DNA of 64,000 nt from Burkholderia sp. BCC0506 (GTDB lineage Bacteria > Pseudomonadota > Gammaproteobacteria > Burkholderiales > Burkholderiaceae). Made by a program: the position numbers and the translations under genes. The stretch is taken from NCBI RefSeq assembly GCF_902833145.1, contig NZ_CADFEN010000016.1:91034-155033 (forward strand), read 5' to 3'. Positions 26,077 through 27,322 of the stretch are shown here, in pieces. Positions within the stretch are counted from its first letter, which is position 1, and each line of letters starts with the position of its first letter. Under the pieces are notes generated by a model. The model ran no database searches, had not been told where the DNA came from, and was given only the letters and a program-made list of their open reading frames with translations.

Positions 26077-26104
26077 TAAAAAAACCCGCCGTTTAACGGC
26101 GGGT
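26077..26104 (-). terminator. Intrinsic terminator of the candidate small RNA
   Basis: The perfect stem ACCCGCCGTT / AACGGCGGGT is followed by TTTTTTT only on the minus strand; the plus strand continues CAAACAGCC with no T-run. It therefore ends minus-strand transcription between two plus-strand genes. Confidence 0.8.
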
Positions 26105-26182
26105 CAAACAGCCTAATCGAAAAACGACAGGCACCCGCTCAGGGAGGAGAAGCGGGGAGCTGCACGCAACGCGTGCCGCTCG
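26077..26182 (-). ncRNA. Candidate small RNA with an anti-Shine-Dalgarno loop
   Basis: Transcribed against both flanking genes. A -10-like TATGAT (26194-26189) would start RNA near 26182; no clear -35 is seen. The RNA then folds as stem 1 (GAGC-GCACGC with GCGTGC-GCTC, 26181-26157) directly followed by stem 2 (CCCGCT with AGCGGG, 26156-26134), whose 11-base loop TCTCCTCCCTG contains CUCCUCCC, complementary to Shine-Dalgarno sequences. A 29-base T-rich single strand follows, then an intrinsic terminator (26104-26084, stem ACCCGCCGTT/AACGGCGGGT) with seven T. The layout is that of a trans-acting sRNA. Not tied to a named family. Confidence 0.6.
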
Positions 26183-26231
26183 ATCGCTATCATATACCAA
26201 CGATCTCGAAAATGACCTAAGGGTTCCGTAA

Positions 26232-27283: not shown

Positions 27284-27322
27284 AAAAACGGCGGCACACC
27301 TCGGTGTGCCGCCGTTTTTTTG
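27284..27322. terminator. Bidirectional terminator between hemB and dsbD
   Basis: ACGGCGGCACACC and GGTGTGCCGCCGT form a 13-base perfect stem with a two-base loop, an A-run to the left and seven T to the right. Serves the convergent hemB and dsbD. Confidence 0.92.

Follow-up and report, generated by a model that had tools for sequence, protein, structure and literature searches.

The closest described relative of the RNA analysed here is ncS04 of Burkholderia cenocepacia J2315, alternatively named anti-hemB, a transcript of 105 nt that is visible in dRNA-seq, with a strong start site marking its 5' end and a 3' end confirmed by RACE (PMC5688073). It is flanked by two oppositely oriented genes (PMC4603805), co-purifies with Hfq (PMC4603805, PMC5688073) and is reported without significant change in seven conditions, low iron included (PMC5688073). 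A review describes an Hfq co-purification study with 24 northern-confirmed sRNAs, among them Bc7, for which hemB was given as a predicted target and RybB is named as a homologue (PMC6321483), and an anti-hemB RNA is also listed for B. pseudomallei (PMC3521395). Bc7 is probably the same RNA as ncS04, as suggested by the Rfam name 'Burkholderia RNA 7 (anti-hemB)' and that one review passage. The literature search did not locate the original description of the corresponding Rfam motif, RF02837, the accessible part of Weinberg 2010 holds no mention of hemB, and no stated role for the anti-hemB RNA was found in the portions of the literature examined. Other hairpin RNAs with exposed CU-rich stretches directed against ribosome sites are RF02278 (Betaproteobacteria toxic small RNA; ncS03, ncS05, ncS27 and ncS62) and Bordetella S17, for which action on specific mRNAs is reported. 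Because the RNA is already known and catalogued as anti-hemB, there is little unusual in finding it here; what the comparison contributes is three points open to testing, namely a 5' hairpin, the indication that hemB is probably not the target, and a promoter that in many relatives resembles those of an envelope-stress regulon.

The window, which is the whole stretch of 64,000 nucleotides analysed from Burkholderia sp. BCC0506, carries this sRNA gene on its minus strand at 26182-26078, as read on the sequence, between engB/ysxC (ribosome biogenesis GTPase, TIGR03598; 25352..26011, plus strand) and hemB (porphobilinogen synthase, NF006762; 26265..27263, plus strand), from which it diverges. We infer the 5' end, and with it the full length of 105 nt (26078..26182), from the published length and from a TATGAT at 26189..26194, a probable -10 element lying seven bases 5' of stem 1; the site is missing from the output of a simple promoter scan of the window because no acceptable -35 hexamer precedes it. 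Read along the minus strand, hairpin 1 (26157..26181) lies at the 5' end of the RNA and is adjoined, with zero bases between, by hairpin 2 (26134..26156), whose exposed loop UCUCCUCCCUG (26140..26150) includes the octamer CCUCCCUG (26147-26140) and is complementary to GGAGG-type Shine-Dalgarno sites. Hairpin 3 (26111..26132), absent from the original prediction, is seen in the fold, and it is followed by an intrinsic terminator (26078..26105) with a 10-pair stem (26105-26083), a loop of 3 and seven U, the corresponding run of seven T (26084-26078) being present on the minus strand only. The RNA folds with -54.5 kcal/mol, whereas its shuffles average about -34; the z-score is -6.25 when 106 nt are folded and -6.23 with 105 nt, none of 200 shuffles being equally good; the minimum-energy fold adds one pair within the UCUCCUCCCUG loop.

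Regarding the family of this RNA, a cmscan of the whole window gave two matches above curated cut-offs, a tRNA and RF02837 (anti-hemB), the latter at 26158-26076 with 85.1 bits (cut-off 49.5) and spanning model positions 1-81 of 81. It is the one match above cut-off in the BCC0506 genome (7.29 Mb, 45 contigs), where four others fall below. The traits of the family are found at the locus: the hairpin loop with CCUCCCUG, the middle hairpin, the terminator, and hemB adjoining on the opposite strand. Compared with RF02837/ncS04, the window RNA has the same sequence, fold, terminator, hemB neighbour, orientation and length of 105 nt, with no essential difference, although the 81-position model begins at hairpin 2 and so lacks hairpin 1. 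Judged by name, length, orientation and family, the window RNA is very probably the counterpart of ncS04, whose flanking genes BCAL0264/BCAL0265 we take to be hemB and engB; the transcript, its ends and its association with Hfq are published for ncS04 of B. cenocepacia, another strain than BCC0506. The original prediction had described the minus-strand-only T-run, the abutting stem-loops, the C-rich loop and the TATGAT accurately, and its proposals of an RNA of about 106 nt, of binding by Hfq, of an anti-Shine-Dalgarno loop and of an entry in transcript catalogues under another name all agree with the fold of the locus and with what is published on ncS04.

The alpha-r14 and Xanthomonas sX13 RNAs have CUCC-type loops and in this are like the window RNA; the kinship with alpha-r14 that had been suggested is not supported, as RF02344 (ar14) scores 16.1 bits (cut-off 58.8). 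Membership of RF02278 (16.3 bits, cut-off 50) and of RybB (RF00110; 16.3 bits, cut-off 40) was likewise rejected. RybB and the other enterobacterial sigma-E sRNAs would be alike in logic if the promoter found in relatives, described below, is sigma-E-dependent, while the pairing element of RybB differs from the anti-hemB loop. The BCC0506 genome holds a separate RF02278 RNA of ncS27 type (G000:C12, L005 1499-1558; 75.3 bits, cut-off 50). Directly 3' of a 459-codon frame resembling a plasmid-type primase (named by eye), the genome also has an RNA-like element that ends in a terminator and shows CCUCCCUGA in each of two hairpin loops (L002, G000:C19; about 1595-1501 on the minus strand); its RF02837 score of 35.6 bits is below cut-off. 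This element occurs in two of 41 genomes of the genus, BCC0506 and one other (191/201 bases, 100%), with a 31-base match in a third, and may therefore be a mobile-element RNA with the same loop.

The family is widespread in the order: of 300 genomes sampled, 232 have an RF02837 match at E <= 0.001 and 190 have one above cut-off, 112 of 134 genera being matched, compared with 3 of 14 control genomes with a match and none of 14 above cut-off. Some genomes have several matches (six each in G234 and G251, four in G281), in part clustered (G234:C10), and Nitrosospira briensis (L079) has two sibling copies of the sRNA about 120 bases apart. The public-genome scan for CCCGCTTYWCCTCCCTGAGCGGG returned at least 121 matches in at least 120 stretches; among the 121 matches listed, 97 have hemB within 600 nt, without exception on the other strand, and three more have it at about 1.5 kb, while engB is found in 70, on the opposite strand in 69. 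The 24 listed matches without hemB within 600 nt overstate the loss of synteny, because some of them adjoin the end of the stored DNA. In 29 loci of other genomes chosen by family, hemB was detected in 25 cases and engB in 27. The sRNA is kept where hemB was not found nearby, as in the second copy of Caenimonas (L103), in Methylovorus (L065) and in Vogesella (L067). Outside Burkholderia, many terminator loops (L009-L023 and others) bear a second C-rich stretch, CUCCCCUUU-like, which the window RNA lacks.

The cross-species alignment that might have spoken against the original prediction finds the hairpins and the loop conserved. As seen in 49 loci picked by family score and not by motif, CCUCCCUG is present in 47 by script, and the remaining two (L008 and L027), skipped by the position filter of the script, show it on inspection. 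The hairpin-2 stem CCCGCU/AGCGGG occurs in 39 of the 47, and in four loci (L241, L246, L247 and L248) the pairing is kept by changes on both sides; the public-genome loci are uninformative on hairpin 2, because the search pattern had fixed it. With regard to hairpin 1, a hairpin abuts hairpin 2 (within two bases) in 114 of 118 non-redundant loci, and hairpin-1 scores of at least 12 are reached in 91.5% of loci; when the same 34 bases are shuffled the proportion is 15.7%, and in upstream DNA it is likewise 15.7%. The 105 loci whose hairpin 1 has at least six pairs show 58 distinct 5' arms, and the arms pair at 98% of positions within a locus against 51% across loci, a comparison tilted towards the same-locus value because the arms were picked by pairing. 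The number of arm variants, taken with the pairing within loci, indicates that hairpin 1 is kept by structure and not by sequence. On this comparative evidence, hairpin 1 is part of the RNA despite its omission from the public model, which is a new point here.

The promoter differs between lineages. Many relatives have GGAACTT, 16-17 bases and TCTnA directly 5' of hairpin 1, an arrangement of sigma-E type. A weight matrix was trained on the rpoH promoters of 15 betaproteobacterial genomes, of which 14 have a sigma-E-type site (10 of the 15 found by regular expression, four, L225, L228, L230 and L231, by eye, and none in L224), and was run with a threshold of 10 on the 120 bases 5' of hairpin 2; the set comprised 118 non-redundant loci out of 149, of which two were too short. 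The threshold was reached in 67 of the 118, compared with 4.0 expected from shuffles, and all 67 hits lie between -65 and -44; within -58..-42 there are hits in 63 loci, compared with 0.8 in shuffles. The opposite strand, used as control, gave hits in 3 of 118 loci, and the matrix from the 10 regular-expression sites alone again gave 67 of 118. Twenty lower-scoring family loci were added later, and 15 of them have the promoter. The test is post hoc in its choice of motif, which was first spotted by eye in the same sRNA loci; independent of that choice are the training on rpoH, the control on the opposite strand and the 20 later loci.

By lineage, the tally covers the 63 assignable loci, leaving out unassigned metagenome bins, under family labels that we presume to be correct. 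The promoter is found in Rhodocyclaceae-type loci (7/7), Nitrosomonadales and kin (7/8), Oxalobacteraceae (4/4), Pandoraea (3/3), Paraburkholderia/Caballeronia (6/7) and Vogesella (1/1). Comamonadaceae-type loci have 1/29, the sole hit being out of place at -106, and Burkholderia has 0/4, including the window, where the best score upstream of the sRNA is 4.9 against the threshold of 10. In many other betaproteobacteria the sRNA appears to stand under a sigma-E-type promoter, a match to which seems to have been lost from the Burkholderia copies studied here, and this split between lineages is likewise new. We see about an even chance that the anti-hemB RNA was ancestrally a sigma-E (envelope-stress) sRNA, similar in logic to RybB and MicA and silencing through the invariant CCUCCCUG, and that its promoter was replaced in Burkholderia and, separately, in Comamonadaceae-type lineages, leaving a steadily made RNA. 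Such a replacement would explain why ncS04 did not respond to the conditions examined in B. cenocepacia. In Burkholderia the sRNA seems to be steadily made. If true, this reading tells when targets should be sought, which is upon sigma-E induction in bacteria retaining the promoter, and it would show how a single conserved RNA can come under different triggers in different lineages.

It is possible, with a clearly smaller probability, that the GGAACTT-TCTnA element is the promoter of another ECF sigma factor, or an activator site 5' of a sigma-70 promoter. Counted over six whole genomes, the motif occurs 26 times and so less often than its reversed control, which occurs 94 times, and the DNA upstream of the 10 best RpoE matches (10 genomes) holds three weak pattern matches (L177, L178 and L180) and no convincing GGAACTT-type promoter, both of which favour such an element, self-activation being usual for sigma-E genes. 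Three of the 26 motif hits are the promoter of the sRNA itself (L155, L196 and L217) and one (L200) precedes the Nitrosospira rpoH; two others precede protease-like and isomerase-like frames, which were named by eye only and are given no weight. No sigma-E-type site was found at the rpoH of Paucimonas, though the Paucimonas sRNA has one. What argues for sigma-E itself is that the matrix made from rpoH promoters only detects the element, and that in vitro transcription by Bordetella SigE is reported both from the rpoHP3 promoter of E. coli and from the rpoH promoter of Bordetella itself (PMC3490749). The literature search found no experiment showing sigma-E dependence of the anti-hemB RNA. In many of the rpoH promoters (L221-L223 and L225-L235), an inverted repeat TTAGCACTC...GAGTGCTAA, which we take to be CIRCE-like, overlaps or follows the sigma-E-type site, and in several the TC of the -10 overlaps with it.

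With regard to its mode of action, the window RNA is very probably the Burkholderia anti-hemB sRNA working in trans, that is, independently transcribed, held by Hfq and blocking Shine-Dalgarno sites through CCUCCCUG. In this reading, Hfq would bind an independent transcript of about 105 nt at the terminator with its U tail, and the hairpin loop presents CCUCCCUG; we infer that the loop would base-pair with the G-rich Shine-Dalgarno sites of other transcripts and that this pairing would repress the translation of several mRNAs; the same general proposal has been made for CU-rich RNAs (PMC5688073). A strict complement 5' of a start codon, CAGGGAGGAG-N3-10-RTG, has no hits in the BCC0506 genome. 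In four genomes, the pattern AGGGAGGA-N4-11-ATG has 17 hits and its reversed form 10; the 17 precede mostly short or unlikely frames with no common gene, as judged by eye; the target list based on complementarity was dropped as noise. That the complementarity searches yielded no specific target would also suit an RNA that mimics ribosome sites in general, or that acts as a sponge of other RNAs or proteins, with no defined set of mRNAs, and the loop, as we assume, resembles the 16S anti-Shine-Dalgarno end; this is nevertheless improbable, since the conservation exceeds the CCUCC core, with CCUCCCUG kept in the family-chosen loci, and the related RF02278 and S17 RNAs are reported to be active on specific mRNAs. 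Action in cis on hemB, a reading suggested by the name anti-hemB, in which the RNA would pair as an antisense with an extended leader of hemB or with an mRNA reading through from engB into hemB, draws on the divergent arrangement (97 of the 121 matches listed have hemB within 600 nt on the other strand), on the perfect complementarity of any plus-strand transcript across 26078-26182 (first 38 nt of the RNA) and on hemB being given as a predicted target of Bc7 in a review (PMC6321483), but is very unlikely, as the most conserved part is the loop, which is unmatched at the hemB start, the two arms of hairpin 1 are free to change their sequence, and hemB was not found near the sRNA in some genomes, among them Caenimonas L103, Methylovorus L065 and Vogesella L067.

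Blocking of ribosome sites in trans remains the preferred reading, with hemB a neighbour of the sRNA and not its likely target. As a candidate for the loop, hemB was rejected, the duplex having -4.7 kcal/mol, a value equalled or surpassed by 75.5% of 200 shuffles. The link to haem or iron drawn earlier from the divergence from hemB is likewise not supported, as the loop has no match at the hemB start and ncS04 is without significant change in low iron. At the other end of hemB, directly 3' of the gene, a 16-pair inverted repeat flanked by A and T runs (27284-27319 of the window) is listed as a plus-strand terminator; from its symmetry, it may terminate in both directions, facing the DsbD gene.
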